DNA from: a virus | Length of the DNA: 21,624 bases | Direction: 5' to 3' (one strand) | IMG/VR virus record: IMGVR_UViG_3300037628_000447 | Coordinates: 1-21,624 of that record | Shown here: positions 4,460-21,624 of the stretch, in pieces | Position numbering within the stretch: position 1 is the first letter of the stretch | Layout: the number at the start of each line of letters is the position of its first letter | Program-made: the position numbers and the translations under genes | Notes under the pieces: generated by a model | The model's database searches: none | What the model was told of the DNA's origin: nothing | Seen by the model: the letters and a program-made list of their open reading frames with translations, nothing else

Positions 4460-5046
4460 TACATTGCCCAGTAAACTATTCTATATTGATATGTTCCTGC
4501 TATTCCTGAGGCTGCCAATTTAGCCCTAATAGTTAAAGCGCCGTTGTCGTTTTTAAACTCTAAAACTTTTGATGCACTTCCACTTATAATTAATTGTTGT
4601 GAATATGACTGACATACTCCACCAGCAGCTTTAAAAAAACCCGTAACTCCAGAATTACTTCCGTCTTGTATAAACATATAAATGTTTCCATAAGTATTGT
4701 TTGGCACTTCGGTTATCGTCGTATGTGAAGTTCCTGGCGTAAATGTTCCACTTAAAAATGACGGTATGAATTGATATATGCCGCTTGCGTTTCTATAGAA
4801 CCCTTCAACTCTACTATTAATCTCTTTGAAATAAATCCCTCCGTCCATTCCTGTAGAAAGAGTTAAATCTGCTGCAAGTTTAGGGGCCTGTACCTGTTTA
4901 TGAAACCCATCTTCATTAGCTCCTATATTCCAGTAATGATCGTTATTTAGAGTTGTTTCCGTATAAGTTGTATTTCCTCCAAGGATCGTATTGTTTTGTT
5001 TAACCGATTTTGACCCATCCGGGGCAACGGCATTCCACGCACACAT
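4459..5046 (-). CDS. Tail fibre/spike-like virion protein
   Basis: A 195-residue protein with no Lys/Glu-rich helices and high Gly, Ser, Thr and Asn, as in fibre and spike proteins. It opens with APDGSKSVKQNNTILGGNTT. The segment DHYWNIGANEDGFHKQVQAP (residues about 36-55) resembles the virion-attachment region of podoviral tail fibres. The C-terminal part (GSASKVLEFKNDNGALTIRA and YQYRIVYWAM) looks like a small beta-sandwich. The Shine-Dalgarno AAGGAGAATAAAT sits before ATG 5046. It is followed directly, by TAATG overlap, by the large gp10-like tail gene. It is probably a short receptor-binding or decoration protein. At 195 residues it is much shorter than full-length fibres. Confidence 0.75.
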   Translation of the reverse strand: MCAWNAVAPDGSKSVKQNNTILGGNTTYTETTLNNDHYWNIGANEDGFHKQVQAPKLAADLTLSTGMDGGIYFKEINSRVEGFYRNASGIYQFIPSFLSGTFTPGTSHTTITEVPNNTYGNIYMFIQDGSNSGVTGFFKAAGGVCQSYSQQLIISGSASKVLEFKNDNGALTIRAKLAASGIAGTYQYRIVYWAM

Positions 5047-5048
5047 AT

Positions 5049-5528
5049 TTATTCTCCTTTTTGATTAAAAGTCTTTATCTTTTGATAAATATTCTCTTTT
5101 TCGTTTCTTAGATCTTCAGGTAAAATCATAAAAGTTCCAGTTCGGCCACATTTTCTATTATTAAATTTAGTATTTGCATATTCTATAGCTAACTTGCATC
5201 TTTCTTTTTTAGTTATCATATAAGGCAATATTTCTTTGCAAAACTCTGGAATTATCGCGGTACTCAATGTGAAGGCATAAATATCTTTCCATTTTGGATT
5301 TCCTCGTGGCTTCGCGTCTGATAAGTAACACTTATAACTTTTTGAGATAACATTTTTCATCCAATTTAATGTTTTAAAACATGTCATACTTATTTTTAGC
5401 CTTAAAGTATAACTGTATTTTCCCGTATACTTTCCTTTTCTTCTTTCAATAAATTTTTCCACGTAAATACAACCCTCTCCATCTATTAGCGCTGCTATAT
5501 AAGCTAATTCTGTTTTTAATAGGACCAT
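5049..5528 (-). CDS. Free-standing LAGLIDADG homing endonuclease
   Basis: A 159-residue protein with the LAGLIDADG-type motif IAALIDGEG at residues 11-19, followed by a short strand (CIYVEK). The remainder is basic and beta-alpha in pattern (LRLKISMTCFKTLNWMK; IYAFTLSTAIIPEFCKEILP), matching single-motif LAGLIDADG enzymes that dimerise and cut about 20 bp sites. I start it at ATG 5528 because AGGAGGGTT lies directly upstream. A longer in-frame reading from 5567 adds 13 residues but lacks a ribosome site. A TATAAT box lies upstream at about 5552-5557 with no good -35, so a private promoter is only possible. The gene sits between a short lysine-rich gene and the tail fibre gene, as expected for an intron-less mobile endonuclease gene. 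Confidence 0.88.
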   Translation of the reverse strand: MVLLKTELAYIAALIDGEGCIYVEKFIERRKGKYTGKYSYTLRLKISMTCFKTLNWMKNVISKSYKCYLSDAKPRGNPKWKDIYAFTLSTAIIPEFCKEILPYMITKKERCKLAIEYANTKFNNRKCGRTGTFMILPEDLRNEKENIYQKIKTFNQKGE

Positions 5529-5563
5529 AACCCTCCTAATGGTTTGGTCTATTATACACCAGT

Positions 5564-5707
5564 TCATTTATTTTTTCTTTGCTTTTTACCTTTCCCGGCT
5601 TTAGACAGAGATATCGCAACACTCTGCTTTTGTGGGTAACCTTCATCTCTTAATTTACTAATGTTCTTTGAAACAGTCTTCTTAGACTTTCCCTTTTTCA
5701 ACGGCAT
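5564..5707 (-). CDS. 47-residue lysine-rich phage protein (DUF6496-like)
   Basis: A short gene of 47 residues starting [20 protein letters not shown], followed by [18 protein letters not shown] and a basic tail. The combination 'PLKKG-S.KT.S.NI..L...G.PQKQ.VAI.L.KAG' is a recurrent small phage protein pattern that I associate with DUF6496; its function is unknown. The charge suggests nucleic-acid or virion-DNA contact, but this is a guess. GGAGGAACAAG precedes the ATG, and the 5' end overlaps the previous gene by 26 bp. The stop lies 36 bp before the endonuclease start. Confidence 0.8.
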
Positions 5708-5978
5708 CTTGTTCCTCCTTATTAATCAAACTTAAATCTCTGTGTGTTTTTAATCCAAAAGGCCATTCTGGAGGATTCATCCAGGCAGCAATATATTTGA
5801 AGTGTTGCTCATCTTCATAATATTCCTCCCCATCTATTCCATAATTAGGATCATTAGGACTATAATAGCCATACTTTTGGGAAGTATAACATGAATAAGA
5901 ATCCCCACATTCTCGCAATGCAAACCAATAATAACCACTCTCTTCTGGTTTTTGAAGATTCCAATCAATCCATTTCAT
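5682..5978 (-). CDS. DUF551-like small protein
   Basis: A 98-residue acidic, Tyr/Trp-rich protein. It opens [19 protein letters not shown] and has [13 protein letters not shown] near residue 63. The layout (Trp-Ile near the N-terminus, then 'P...G.Y', then 'aaW.pPP.wP' at the end of the core) is that of DUF551 proteins, common in phages and of unknown function. Four genes in this window show this layout, and this is the most divergent. AAGGAA lies 10 bp before ATG 5978. The 3' end overlaps the 47-residue gene by 26 bp. Confidence 0.75.
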
Positions 5979-6054
5979 TTAACTAATTTCCTTAAAACTT
6001 CCATTATTAACAATTTGATCCTATTCCATTTTGATTGCCTATTATTTGCATGCC

Positions 6055-6309
6055 TTACATATCATCTAATGACCACGTTTTATACCCATTTTTATTTAAT
6101 TCATTGTCTAATGATTTTGGAAGAGGAATCCAATGGGTCACCACTGTCTCGTAATTGTTCCAATCATTTGGTGGTATGTCACAATCTCCGCCTTCTCCAC
6201 TCCAACAATATATTGCAGGTCTTTTGAAGCGTCCCTTTTCGTCGGATTCTAAGCATACATAAAGACCACTCTTCTTTGGCAACTCATCTTCTACGCTAAT
6301 CCAATCCAT
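6055..6309 (-). CDS. DUF551 family protein
   Basis: An 84-residue protein with a near-consensus DUF551 core: DWISVEDELPKKSGLYVCL at the N-terminus and VVTHWIPLPKS at about residues 56-66. The middle carries RPAIYCWSGEGGDCDIPP. A poorly conserved acidic tail follows. Function is unknown, though family members are frequent in phage accessory regions. It follows the zinc-ribbon gene by 1 bp. Its opening is nearly the same as those of the two DUF551-like genes at 19.3-19.8 kb, suggesting paralogues within one phage. Confidence 0.82.
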   Translation of the reverse strand: MDWISVEDELPKKSGLYVCLESDEKGRFKRPAIYCWSGEGGDCDIPPNDWNNYETVVTHWIPLPKSLDNELNKNGYKTWSLDDM

Positions 6310-6310
6310 C

Positions 6311-6508
6311 TTATAGCTCCCTGTCTAGTTCCAGCTCTGGCCTGTTAGGCCAATCATAATCGTTTGTATGACATAGGCTCTTCTTCTCTCCACATGAATC
6401 ACACTCCCCAGTATGAAAAGTCGCTACATGACAAACTGGCCATATTGCTCCGCCAAGCTCTGCGCAGTCTCTGCATATAAAGCCTGCTCCTATTTTGTTA
6501 TCTTTCAT
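6311..6508 (-). CDS. Small zinc-ribbon phage protein
   Basis: A 65-residue protein with Cys12-x2-Cys15, Cys26-His27, His32, Cys36-x2-Cys39 and Cys46-His47, enough ligands for one or two zinc sites. The order FICRDCAELGGAIWPVCHVA then GECDSCGEKKSLC resembles small zinc-binding phage proteins of unknown role. It starts directly after the TAG stop of the adaptor gene, using GAGG inside that gene's end, so it is read from the same transcript. It may be a regulator or host-interaction factor, but there is no direct evidence. Confidence 0.8.
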   Translation of the reverse strand: MKDNKIGAGFICRDCAELGGAIWPVCHVATFHTGECDSCGEKKSLCHTNDYDWPNRPELELDREL

Positions 6509-7201
6509 CTAAAACCTCGGGAATCCTCTCTGAGTTTTTAATTGATTATGGGTCCTTCCAAGCATCCTCGCTTTCTCACGCTTGTAACCTATAGTTATCT
6601 TAGCTAGACTATTCTCATCGTATCTATAATCTGAGGCGTAATCAAGCGCTGCTAGATAAGACAAATATCTTACCCAATAATCAAACGGAAGCTCAGGGTT
6701 GCCCTCTGTTGAGAACTCAGGGTTAAGCTTATATCCATATATCTTAACGTCATAACTTGTATTTGGGATCGTCCTAAATACAAACTCAGTTCCATAAAAA
6801 AGCATCTCTGTGGGATAACCGGGTATTAGGATGTCCTCGTTGTTGACGCCCCATTGCATGTAAAACAAGCCTGGATCTTGAAATATTCTAAGTCTATTCC
6901 AAGACACAGACTCACTCGGAGGATCTGTCAATGTAATGAAAGCTTCAGCACTTATAGTTCTAAAGTTATCGCTAGCTCCGACATCGTTAAACGTATATAC
7001 ACCTGTAGTATTTGTTTCATCTATCGTAAATTCTAATGTGTCATTTAATTCAAATAATGTTACATCACCAGCCATCGATATATGTACGGCATCATTTAGA
7101 TAATTTAACATTACAGAATCGCTGGAATCCGGATCGTTTTCATTACGTCGTCCTAGTATAACTCTCATTAGAGTAAAACAATCTGAAACAAACTTAGTCA
7201 T
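6509..7201 (-). CDS. Head-tail adaptor/connector protein
   Basis: A 230-residue protein. It opens with a helix and loop (FVSDCFTLMRVILGRRNEND) then LNYLNDAVHIS, has a beta-rich centre, and ends with YWVRYLSYLAALDYASDYRY followed by a basic tail ending RTHNQLKTQRGFPRF. Phage adaptors that sit under the portal (P22 gp4-like and related podoviral connectors) share this plan: N-terminal helices, a beta insert, a long C-terminal helix and a basic end. The gene lies downstream of portal, scaffold and coat and upstream of tail genes, as expected. It starts 2 bp after the previous stop. The role is fairly likely; the exact family is uncertain. Confidence 0.72.
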   Translation of the reverse strand: MTKFVSDCFTLMRVILGRRNENDPDSSDSVMLNYLNDAVHISMAGDVTLFELNDTLEFTIDETNTTGVYTFNDVGASDNFRTISAEAFITLTDPPSESVSWNRLRIFQDPGLFYMQWGVNNEDILIPGYPTEMLFYGTEFVFRTIPNTSYDVKIYGYKLNPEFSTEGNPELPFDYWVRYLSYLAALDYASDYRYDENSLAKITIGYKREKARMLGRTHNQLKTQRGFPRF

Positions 7202-13511: not shown

Positions 13512-15794
13512 TTAAAACAATCGATTACGCCTTTGAACGGCTTTCTTATGCTTTTGTAGCGCTGCCCTGTTACCTCCTACTGCTTCAATGTGAGTCACCG
13601 CCTGCATCGCATATATAAACGAATCTGCGTGGTGTGTGGCATCGTTTTTACAAGGCTCGTCAAGGTATTTTCCGTATTGCTCAGACCATTTCTTTCGATA
13701 CTTATTTATCACATCTATAAAAGGTTTAACCTTTTTAACGTTGAATACGCATCTAGAGAATTTTATTTTAGCATTGGATATGTTTAGGTTCTTGTCTGTT
13801 CTTGGAAGGACAATAAACTTTGTTTCCGTATGCTGGAAATATCTTCTAAAGTCTCGCTCATATGTGTTCTCTACAACAATGCCATCTCTATGTGCTGCGT
13901 CGTGGGGCAAGAACACCGTATTATAAATATAAGGCTTATCTTGGAGTAGAAAGTTAGAGTAAAAATCAACGCCTTTGTTGTTATCTTCATAGTAATCTAT
14001 GATTCTTATCTCTCCGTGGACAATTTGAAAGAATGTTATCACCGTTAGATCGTTAACTCCGATATCCATAGCTATATAAACTTGCTCTATAGCGTCGTAT
14101 AAAGAGTTGTAAACGCACCGCTTCTCTTGATAGGCTAGTTCTATGCATTGCTGGAAGTAGTAAGCGTCAGAGCTTGACAAGAATGCCTCTGACACTGTCG
14201 ATGGGAACTCTTGCCTCATCTTATCGCCTTGATCTAAGCGCTTTTCTGCGTACCAGTTTCTTTGCTGTTGAGTAATCTTTGTGTTAAGTTTTTTCTCTAG
14301 ATCATCAAAGTAATCCGTTAAGGCTACTTCATATTCTATCTTTTTGTTTGAAACATATGAGTCTTCCTCGAGCCAGTTAAAAAAGAATAGCTTGTATTGC
14401 AAAGGCGACAGGTCTTTATTCTCATGTTGAGACGCTATATTTACCATGTCGGTATAGTATCCTTCATTTCCTTCCCCCGTGCTTTCTATAATACAAGTAC
14501 TGTCTTTGGAAATAGCATTTAATGTGCCGGTTACAACTTCTTGAGCTTTTAGAGGATTTCTAGCACATGTCTTTCCGAATTCAGATACTAACACAAGCTG
14601 ATAAGCACCACCTCTGAGTGTCGTATCTACTCTAAGTGTTGAGCCATTCTTGAATGTGATTTCTTTTGTTGATCGCTGTACAACGCCTGCTAGCTCTCTT
14701 GCCATTGGCCTTAACTCATCGACTGCATGCCCGATGATTTTCTTAAAGATATGCTCAGCATGATCTCTTGAATAACTAACGATTCCTGCCGTAAGATTAT
14801 TATTAAATATAGCTTCGTCTAAGATGTAGAGTACGGCGAATGTTGAATTATGAGAAACATATCCGTCTGCTATATAAGTTTTAATAGAGGTTTGTAAGTC
14901 AACAACTTCCCTTTCTCCAATGCTTTCAATCTTTATAATTGTTGAGTAATTACCTTCTACTACAAGAGGAACTTTCTTTCCCTCCCACCAATCTCTATCT
15001 AAAAATCTTGACGGCCTAGTTATTCCGATTAGTTTCATGACCTCGCTAACATGAGCGACCACTATCTTATTTACCGGTTTCTTTCCGAACTTAGAAGGAC
15101 GGTCGGCCTTATCGACCTCAATCCTATAATTATAACCCCTAGAACCGAAATAAGCTTCTAGTCTGTCAAAGACTGCTCCCTGTATTTGGCTTACGTTTAT
15201 ACTACCGCCTAATCTACTTTTTTTAGCAAGAGAGCCTTCTCCATCAAGCATGCCGCCCATCCACCCGTCTTCAAAACTTCCTTTTTCCCAAGTATCTGCT
15301 GTGATTCGTCTAATCCGGTTGCCAAGCTTAAGCTCTTTCTTTCCCAGGCCTTCAATGCTTCTCCAATGGTAGTCTGTCATCGTATTTCTTGCTAACCACC
15401 TGTGCTGACCTGTGCAAATTAAAGTTTTACCGTTCTCGAAAGTAATGCGGTAAGCTTTTTCAAGTCTCCTAAAAACCCCTTCTACCGTACCTTTTCTTAA
15501 TTTCCTTGCACTCCCCTGACATCTAGGAGTTTCATCTACACCTATAATCTCATCGCCGGCTTTCATATCCCCGATTCTAACCCAAGTAAAATCTGATTTT
15601 AAAATCTTAGTATTTGGATCTAAACACATGCCTAATTGGCGAGCTTTTAGGATTATATTGCGATTATGGAAGCCGGAAAGCACTTTTGCTTGAACTTTAT
15701 TTAACCTGAAGGGGATTGAATTTCCGTCTCTATCAACAATTCTATAGAGATTGTTCATTCTCCAAGTCTTATCAGCTAGAAGTTCTATGCTCAT
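13512..15794 (-). CDS. Terminase large subunit interrupted by an intein
   Basis: A 760-residue precursor: 500 residues of terminase and a 260-residue intein at residues 57-316. The flanking sequences join as KARQLGM + STFAV, restoring the ATPase P-loop. Further ATPase motifs are VLVSEFG (about 401-407) and IESTGEG (436-442). The C-terminal nuclease has AMDIG (Asp577), LPHDAAHR (Asp632) and HHADS (Asp724), the acidic set of the RNase H-like fold. The spliced enzyme would cut and pump phage DNA into the procapsid through the portal. The start overlaps the upstream stop (ATGA), so translation is coupled. Order TerS-small gene-TerL-portal is that of P22-like phages. Confidence 0.93.
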   Translation of the reverse strand: MSIELLADKTWRMNNLYRIVDRDGNSIPFRLNKVQAKVLSGFHNRNIILKARQLGMCLDPNTKILKSDFTWVRIGDMKAGDEIIGVDETPRCQGSARKLRKGTVEGVFRRLEKAYRITFENGKTLICTGQHRWLARNTMTDYHWRSIEGLGKKELKLGNRIRRITADTWEKGSFEDGWMGGMLDGEGSLAKKSRLGGSINVSQIQGAVFDRLEAYFGSRGYNYRIEVDKADRPSKFGKKPVNKIVVAHVSEVMKLIGITRPSRFLDRDWWEGKKVPLVVEGNYSTIIKIESIGEREVVDLQTSIKTYIADGYVSHNSTFAVLYILDEAIFNNNLTAGIVSYSRDHAEHIFKKIIGHAVDELRPMARELAGVVQRSTKEITFKNGSTLRVDTTLRGGAYQLVLVSEFGKTCARNPLKAQEVVTGTLNAISKDSTCIIESTGEGNEGYYTDMVNIASQHENKDLSPLQYKLFFFNWLEEDSYVSNKKIEYEVALTDYFDDLEKKLNTKITQQQRNWYAEKRLDQGDKMRQEFPSTVSEAFLSSSDAYYFQQCIELAYQEKRCVYNSLYDAIEQVYIAMDIGVNDLTVITFFQIVHGEIRIIDYYEDNNKGVDFYSNFLLQDKPYIYNTVFLPHDAAHRDGIVVENTYERDFRRYFQHTETKFIVLPRTDKNLNISNAKIKFSRCVFNVKKVKPFIDVINKYRKKWSEQYGKYLDEPCKNDATHHADSFIYAMQAVTHIEAVGGNRAALQKHKKAVQRRNRLF
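14847..15626 (-). mobile_element. Intein with LAGLIDADG endonuclease in the terminase P-loop
   Basis: The intein covers terminase residues 57-316. It starts with Cys1 (CLDPNTKIL, block A) and has TGQHRW (block B, with the conserved Thr and His, intein residues 72-77). A single LAGLIDADG-type motif GGMLDGEG lies at about intein residues 124-131. It ends VVDLQTS then YIADGYVSHN (blocks F and G), with the catalytic His-Asn pair. The next residue is Ser, the expected acceptor. All splicing residues are present, so it should be active. It is in frame within the terminase and flanked by the P-loop halves KARQLGM and STF. The 260-residue length leaves room for a compact endonuclease with only one clear motif. 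Confidence 0.92.
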
Positions 15795-20075: not shown

Positions 20076-20624
20076 ATGAAAAAGATTTTTGGTGTTTTGA
20101 CGGCATTAAGCCTAAGTTTTTGTGCTTGTGCTTGTGGAAATACCTCTAAAGAAAAAGAAGCATATGAAATTGCTGCAAATGCATTAGAAGCTCAAGAGCT
20201 TGAAATTGAAAAGCTTATAGATATGAGAAATAAAGATGATGGATATGCTTATTTTGGTGTTCATACTCATCCTTTTCCTTTGCCTATCCCTGGAATAGAC
20301 TTAGGCTATAGATATAAGATTAATAGCTTTGCTGTTGATGTAGGGCTTAAATACACGACTGCTTTCGTTGAGCTTGACGCATGTGGTTTGAAATATATCG
20401 ACAACTTTTATCTAGGCGCAGGTATTAGAACGTCTTTTGCTTTATACAAGAAAGTTAAGTTTGGCGATTTCGGATTGATGTTCTTAGCTGGATTCGAATT
20501 TAAGCATATAGATAGAAGACCTACATTCGTTCAATTAGAAGTTTTATATCCACATTATATTTACACGCATAATATTATTTGTTTATGCCAACGATTTAAT
20601 ATCAAATATGGTTGGGGCTTTTAA
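20076..20624 (+). CDS. Secreted beta-barrel-like outer membrane protein (host-like moron)
   Basis: A 182-residue protein. The signal peptide (MKKIFGVLTALSLSFCACAC) includes a Cys-Ala-Cys-Ala-Cys run that may be a lipoprotein cleavage site. A short Glu-rich helix (residues 25-52) is followed by amphipathic strands: GYAYFGVHTHPFPLPIPGID, LGYRYKINSFAVDVGLKYTT, NFYLGAGIRTSF, FGLMFLAGFEF and FNIKYGWGF with a terminal Phe. The aromatic end is typical of beta-barrels. From memory this resembles barrel proteins of environmental Chlamydiae. AAAGGAGAA precedes the ATG. On the opposite strand to all virion genes, it looks like cargo that could alter the host surface, for example to block other phages. 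Confidence 0.75.
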   Translation: MKKIFGVLTALSLSFCACACGNTSKEKEAYEIAANALEAQELEIEKLIDMRNKDDGYAYFGVHTHPFPLPIPGIDLGYRYKINSFAVDVGLKYTTAFVELDACGLKYIDNFYLGAGIRTSFALYKKVKFGDFGLMFLAGFEFKHIDRRPTFVQLEVLYPHYIYTHNIICLCQRFNIKYGWGF

Positions 20625-21309: not shown

Positions 21310-21624
21310 TCATTTAACCACCTTTATTTCTATTGGATATAATGCTTCTACTAAACGTTTCTTACTTCTAAAAGGCTTAATGCCTTTTTCCATTTCTTGG
21401 TGTCTATGTAATCTTACATGAATGGACGGAGACAATAATTGTAAATTTTCTATTCTATTGTCATCTTTTATTCCATTTATATGGTGCACAACTTCATTTT
21501 TTGAATCTATTTTTCTGTTAAGTTCTTTTTCCATTATTTGAATATGTTCTTTTTTTCCTTTCCCATTTTCGGCATATATAACTTTATATCCATTTTCATA
21601 CCAGAATCCAGGGTGTTCTTTATG
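21310..21624 (-). CDS. HNH homing endonuclease, 5' end cut by window edge
   Basis: The frame is open to the right edge, with 104 visible residues. The visible part begins HKEHPGFWYENGYKVIYAEN, then EHIQIMEKELNRKIDSKNEV and the HNH core VHHINGIKDDNRIENLQLLS with HVRLHR. This is the classic phage HNH endonuclease arrangement (H-H, N, H). An internal ATG at 21534 would start inside the conserved domain, so the true start is beyond the window. Such genes are mobile and often sit between unrelated genes. Confidence 0.88.
   Translation of the reverse strand, partial: HKEHPGFWYENGYKVIYAENGKGKKEHIQIMEKELNRKIDSKNEVVHHINGIKDDNRIENLQLLSPSIHVRLHRHQEMEKGIKPFRSKKRLVEALYPIEIKVVK

Follow-up and report, generated by a model that had tools for sequence, protein, structure and literature searches.

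The large terminase subunit (TerL) gene of an uncultured phage, contained in the 21,624-nucleotide stretch of viral DNA analyzed here (the window), carries a 260-residue insert in the P-loop of its ATPase. We regard it as very probable that this insert is a splicing-competent class 1 intein that is probably also a mobile homing element.

TerL P-loop inteins are a known class (Kelley 2016, PMC5050341), as the original prediction had stated. They have so far come mainly from mycobacteriophages, in which the TerL1-a type lies at the classic P-loop site between the Lys and Thr of Walker A. Assays have demonstrated splicing by the TerL inteins of phages BAKA, Bethlehem, Gaia, Chandler, and ScottMcG, and cleavage of intein-free DNA by two of these; the BAKA TerL1-b intein spliced and cut the intein-free allele (PMC5050341). 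TerL1-a and TerL1-b share the Walker A location with the window intein, and the TerL1-a bond is equivalent to the window bond M56^S317 (here and below, ^ marks a junction). Unlike BAKA TerL1-b and Bethlehem TerL1-c, for each of which blocks C and E are reported as two LAGLIDADG motifs, the window intein has one in 260 residues, and it resides in an uncultured phage, whereas the TerL1-a and TerL1-b hosts are mycobacteriophages. The compact single-motif architecture is already known as well. The TerL-like intein of Mycobacterium phage ET08 gp239 is a full-length relative (31% identity, E 1e-30) with the same block order, a single DGEG motif, and 269 residues, but it is inserted at ...LASSPY^S, outside the P-loop; it is apparently the Pham3880-g type of cluster C1 phages. 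Our literature search returned nothing directly on single-motif LAGLIDADG inteins.

What is added here is the breadth and strictness of the P-loop site across divergent terminases, together with direct evidence of turnover: one compact single-motif family occupies the exact site in many uncultured phages. Lateral movement and apparent replacement under a nearly unchanged TerL open the homing cycle, and the target tolerance at an essential codon junction, to direct testing. The insert also has to be allowed for in annotation and in phage classification based on terminases.

The TerL gene and its insert

The TerL gene has small ORFs upstream and a P22-type portal gene (PF16510, E 3e-48) as its other neighbor. 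Its parts were delimited from the ORF list and translation of the window, from family profiles, from alignments to empty sites and to T4 gp17, and from an AlphaFold model:

15794-13512, minus strand: TerL ORF, 760 residues (ORF list and translation)
15627..15794, minus strand: N-extein, TerL residues 1-56, ending ...LKARQLGM in the Walker A loop (sequence, empty-site and T4 gp17 alignments)
14847..15626, minus strand: intein, 260 residues (TerL residues 57-316), 780 nt (Pfam/NCBIfam, empty-site alignment, AlphaFold)
15588..15626, minus strand: splicing block A with Cys1, CLDPNTKILKSDF (sequence, 27-row alignment)
15390..15431, minus strand: splicing block B, GKTLICTGQHRWLA, whose TxxH is T72 and H75 (27-row alignment)
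14949..15386, minus strand: single-copy LAGLIDADG homing endonuclease domain, intein residues 81-226 (AlphaFold, fold search)
15234..15260, minus strand: LAGLIDADG motif MGGMLDGEG, intein residues 123-131, with acidic E130 (27-homologue alignment)
14847..14912, minus strand: splicing blocks F/G, ...DLQTSIKTYIADGYVSHN, with penultimate His259 and Asn260 (27-row alignment)
13512..14846, minus strand: C-extein, starting with Ser(+1)-Thr-Phe, remaining ATPase and nuclease (sequence, PHROGs, empty-site alignment)

The ORF reads ...KARQLGM^CLDPNTKIL...TGQHRW...GWMGGMLDGEGS...YIADGYVSHN^STFAVLY.... The insert placed by the original prediction between KARQLGM and STF is exactly residues 57-316 (15626-14847), both in the sequence and in flush empty-site alignments. 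Scanning viral contigs yielded 35 loci with TerL relatives. When the window TerL is compared with about two dozen intein-free relatives (52-70% identical), its residues up to 56 and those from 317 onward align to directly adjoining parts of the subject, without a subject gap between them; in L004, for example, 5001-5165 is directly followed by 5166-6488. The flanks are thus seamless in insert-free homologues, as is typical of a class 1 intein, and removal of residues 57-316 leaves a continuously aligning protein of 500 residues, as anticipated. A profile of ten intein-free TerL relatives retrieved T4 gp17 from the PDB, and the hmmsearch alignment places ARQLGM^ST of the window opposite SRQLGK^TT of T4 gp17. 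With this T4 stretch taken as the Walker A motif, the intein lies between the equivalents of the Walker A Lys and the next Ser/Thr (M56^S317), the a-site of TerL P-loop inteins, which bears out the predicted splitting of the P-loop and puts the junction at the Lys^Thr bond.

The C-terminal extein matched phrog_26724 and phrog_2472, both without stated function, and weakly phrog_5989 (terminase large subunit). The sole PHROGs match of the insert was a family named DNA primase, which is taken to be intein-bearing. Rfam at gathering cut-offs gave no match in the window, and a group I intron or other RNA family was rejected on that ground.

Splicing and endonuclease domains

Cys1, T72-G-Q-H75, and His259-Asn260 followed by Ser+1 together make up the class 1 intein residue set. 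All of them had been named from the sequence beforehand, and they proved to be conserved among homologues: C1, H75, H259, and N260 are invariant across 27 rows, and T72 is conserved at 90% or more in a 10-row alignment. The comparison with intein databases that had been proposed gave matches to three models. Pfam Intein_splicing covers insert residues 11-260 with an E of 8e-7, yet its 29.4 bits fall below the curated gathering cut-off of 35.8, a point that we count against our reading. NCBIfam intein_Nterm scored 25.8 on the excised insert, above its cut-off of 24.5. Finally, NF038136, a model of an intein-containing protein (the Rv2578c-family radical SAM protein), covers insert residues 1-260 with model positions 76-334 at an E of 4e-17; its intein is equally compact, but it occupies another host protein and host group than the window TerL.

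AlphaFold modelled the whole intein, with 27 aligned homologues, as a Hint domain plus one LAGLIDADG half (pLDDT 92, pTM 0.88). The Hint part, the fold expected of a class 1 intein, matches the gp41-1 intein 6riz with a Z of 19.0 and an rmsd of 1.6 Å over 123 residues, and 6y75 with a Z of 19.3. From the intact motifs, the confident fold, and intein frames that lie open in the essential ATPase loop at 82 of 82 related loci (described below), with internal stop codons at none, we strongly infer that the window intein is splicing-competent. The insert could instead be a non-splicing in-frame addition that TerL tolerates, whether a dead intein or a Hint-like domain that became fixed. Such a reading finds room in the Pfam score and in splicing having been deduced here, but the Walker A motif of an essential ATPase would then stay split, and the splicing residues are all intact in the window copy and its relatives, within a confidently predicted fold; we consider it barely credible. 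A splicing class 1 intein would cut itself out of the TerL precursor and ligate ...KARQLGM with STF..., so that the Walker A loop is whole again, and packaging ATPase activity should therefore require splicing.

The lone LAGLIDADG helix of the insert is GWMGGMLDGEGS, and D128-G129-E130-G131 are invariant across the 27 aligned homologues, including the conserved acidic residue of the motif. A second LAGLIDADG copy, as in two-motif single-chain enzymes, is absent from both the AlphaFold model and the sequence, so the count of one motif given in the original prediction stands. The half-domain fold order (helix, two strands, helix, two strands, helix) is present in the model and was recovered by the fold search, in which nearly all of the best 50 rows were LAGLIDADG enzymes, PI-SceI being also among the nearest. 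One monomer of the homodimeric I-CreI or I-MsoI fits the domain over 86-88 residues at 2.4-2.8 Å, with Z values of 7.5-8.0. These Z values are modest, and the domain modelled in isolation reaches a pLDDT of 78, lower than in the whole intein; both points weigh against our reading.

Because the domain is a single half of the I-CreI/I-MsoI type, a homodimer is expected, and judging from the models the endonuclease should work as one. I-CreI and I-MsoI are intron-encoded, whereas the dimer of the window domain is predicted and its target is without evident dyad symmetry: none was found at the insertion point. Target symmetry was accordingly dropped as support for the homodimer, and its lack is a further point against our reading, as a strict homodimer might show it. 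Two close pairs with enough change gave endonuclease dN/dS values of 0.03 and 0.10; by this measure, the endonuclease is under purifying selection.

Site fidelity and movement between terminase lineages

Profile scans yielded 82 related loci, 80 of them viral and two in bacterial genomes (Halomonas sp. NO4 and an Acidimicrobiales MAG), on contigs that are partly redundant and comprise 52 distinct junction DNA sequences. The intein lies in the TerL P-loop at all 82, in TerLs down to ~20% identical, and where both junctions could be read (78/82) the general pattern is K-x-x-Q-x-G-x^S/T. A 45% identical intein relative occurs on a Roseicitreum plasmid, where the host gene is unread. Being built around the LAGLIDADG motif, this first search would miss copies that lack the endonuclease. 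A second one started from the N-terminal splicing block and was inspected for its best 80 loci. Most of these were again at the P-loop site, each with a middle of endonuclease size, and the others were at slid sites and in a few other genes; no endonuclease-free copy was seen at the P-loop site among these loci. The slid inteins have Cys as the +1 residue and lie either one codon upstream (KGRQQG^CTTY; L084, which is from the first search, and L194, L197, and L205) or several residues upstream (LK^CRQVGIST; L209).

The inteins and the TerLs that carry them disagree in their relationships. The window TerL is closest to the intein-free L003 and L023 (70%), none of the 12 compared relatives with the highest identity to it has the intein, and in the extein tree it is sister to L003 (98/96). 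The nearest inteins, in contrast, are those of the uncultured viral contigs L049, L050, L053, and L054, with which the window intein groups in the intein tree (100/100). Keeping the L054 intein with its TerL kin was rejected by the AU test on the intein data (p 1.8e-5). On the extein tree, L054 beside the window TerL group was not rejected (p 0.42), which we count against our reading, and the AU test that the L049 and L050 inteins are non-sisters was not significant (p 0.12). Identities show the same conflict: the window and L054 share 35% in the extein vs 62% in the intein, L049 and L050 share 86% vs 66%, and the TerLs of L093 (1096-1875) and L095 (2501-3286) are 98% identical over 454 residues while their P-loop inteins are 55% identical. 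In this last pair, for which only protein identities are used since domain-by-domain DNA identity is blurred by free end gaps, one intein has apparently been replaced by another at the same junction. The simplest reading of these comparisons is that inteins moved between TerL lineages and replaced one another.

This pattern bears on two other accounts of the element. Endonuclease decay is common in inteins, and the window copy, whose cutting activity is deduced, might splice with a dead endonuclease and merely be inherited with its TerL gene. We judge this very unlikely given the D128-G129-E130-G131 motif invariant in 27/27 aligned copies, the dN/dS of 0.03-0.10, the strong conflict between intein and extein, and the lack of the intein in the TerLs nearest by descent (L003, L023, and L004). 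Alternatively, the intein might be kept as a regulatory switch, with delayed or conditional splicing, for example through redox at Cys1, timing the terminase to late infection. The location in a catalytic ATPase loop would suit such a role, and biased retention at such sites has been interpreted as environmental sensing (PMC5050341). The intein is nevertheless missing from most close TerL relatives, and its patchy distribution and replacement suit selfish homing better, so that we regard a switch as unlikely.

For a homing element, the LAGLIDADG half would dimerize and cut intein-free TerL genes in co-infected cells, and repair from the intein-bearing copy would put the element into the same codon junction. 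Two factors would preserve the P-loop site: its conservation across terminases, and the breakage of an essential gene upon imprecise loss. More broadly, the P-loop may be the near-universal docking site of a compact intein family, whose single-copy (homodimeric) LAGLIDADG endonuclease would tolerate an asymmetric, codon-degenerate target, move between terminases of ~20-35% identity, and even replace resident inteins, making the site a point of exchange across phages; we offer this generalization tentatively and lean slightly against it. By similarity to isolates, the closest TerL is ~35% identical, and the search with the portal matched no isolated phage; none is close enough for a host assignment.

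Other inteins and endonucleases in the window and related phages

L010, a close TerL relative, has a different intein in the TerL nuclease domain (5602-6639, plus strand, 346 residues, PF14890 E 3e-11), in which an HNH_3 ORF (5865-6581, PF13392 E 2e-17) is nested in the +2 frame within the open intein frame. The same layout occurs in Acinetobacter phage Highwayman, Tetrasphaera phage TJE1, Rhodobacteraceae phage LS06-2018-MD07, and a faecal phage. The loci of such nested-HNH inteins in the TerL nuclease domain, besides that of L010, are:

L132:2501-3481
L133:2339-3292
L134:2501-3310
L135:2501-3454
L293-L370

Among viral-contig relatives, 79 of 80 have the nested HNH, always in the +2 frame and with an intein frame free of stops, a frequency that is biased because the query contained the overlap, on contigs that are partly redundant. 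The insertion site is mostly ...NH^C-x-DAxRY, at the nuclease motif. With the HNH protein fixed and its codons redrawn, the chance of an open intein frame was <=0.0004 for L010, 0.0006 for Highwayman, and 0.05-0.12 for the other three. Changes between close pairs fall mostly at HNH third codon positions in the nested stretch and at intein third codon positions in the Hint flanks, a pattern indicating selection on the HNH frame in the middle and on the intein frame toward the ends. The closest published example is the ShiLan element, in which an HNH lies out of frame within a methylase and which the authors of that study found not to be an intein (PMC11855218); our literature search gave no precedent for an out-of-frame HNH inside a true intein, and this family is probably more novel than the P-loop intein itself. 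L371 (2001-2453) has a 151-residue version of the nuclease-domain intein that lacks the nested ORF and is possibly an endonuclease-free remnant.

Several relatives (L030:1518-3956, L031, L032, L034, and L029) have a TerL that is split near window residue 480, with spacers of very different lengths. In the L029-L032/L034 group, the long spacer (~930 nt) holds an ORF resembling HNH-type endonucleases and the short ones hold stop codons only, and M(T)(S)NITI seems to be the restart point of the second part. It looks as if insertion and decay of an endonuclease divided the terminase of these phages into two genes.

Three further ORFs of the window deserve mention. A stand-alone LAGLIDADG-type endonuclease of 172 residues is encoded at 5049-5567 on the minus strand (PF00961 E 0.004, below the cut-off; phrog_5046 E 2e-19), with 25-27% identical relatives in Caulobacter and Gordonia phages. 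An HNH_3 endonuclease ORF at 21310-21624 on the minus strand (PF13392 E 2e-10) runs past the window edge. At 20076-20624, on the plus strand and thus opposite to nearly all other genes, a 182-residue ORF starts with a lipoprotein-like signal (MKKIFGVLTALSLSFCACACGN).
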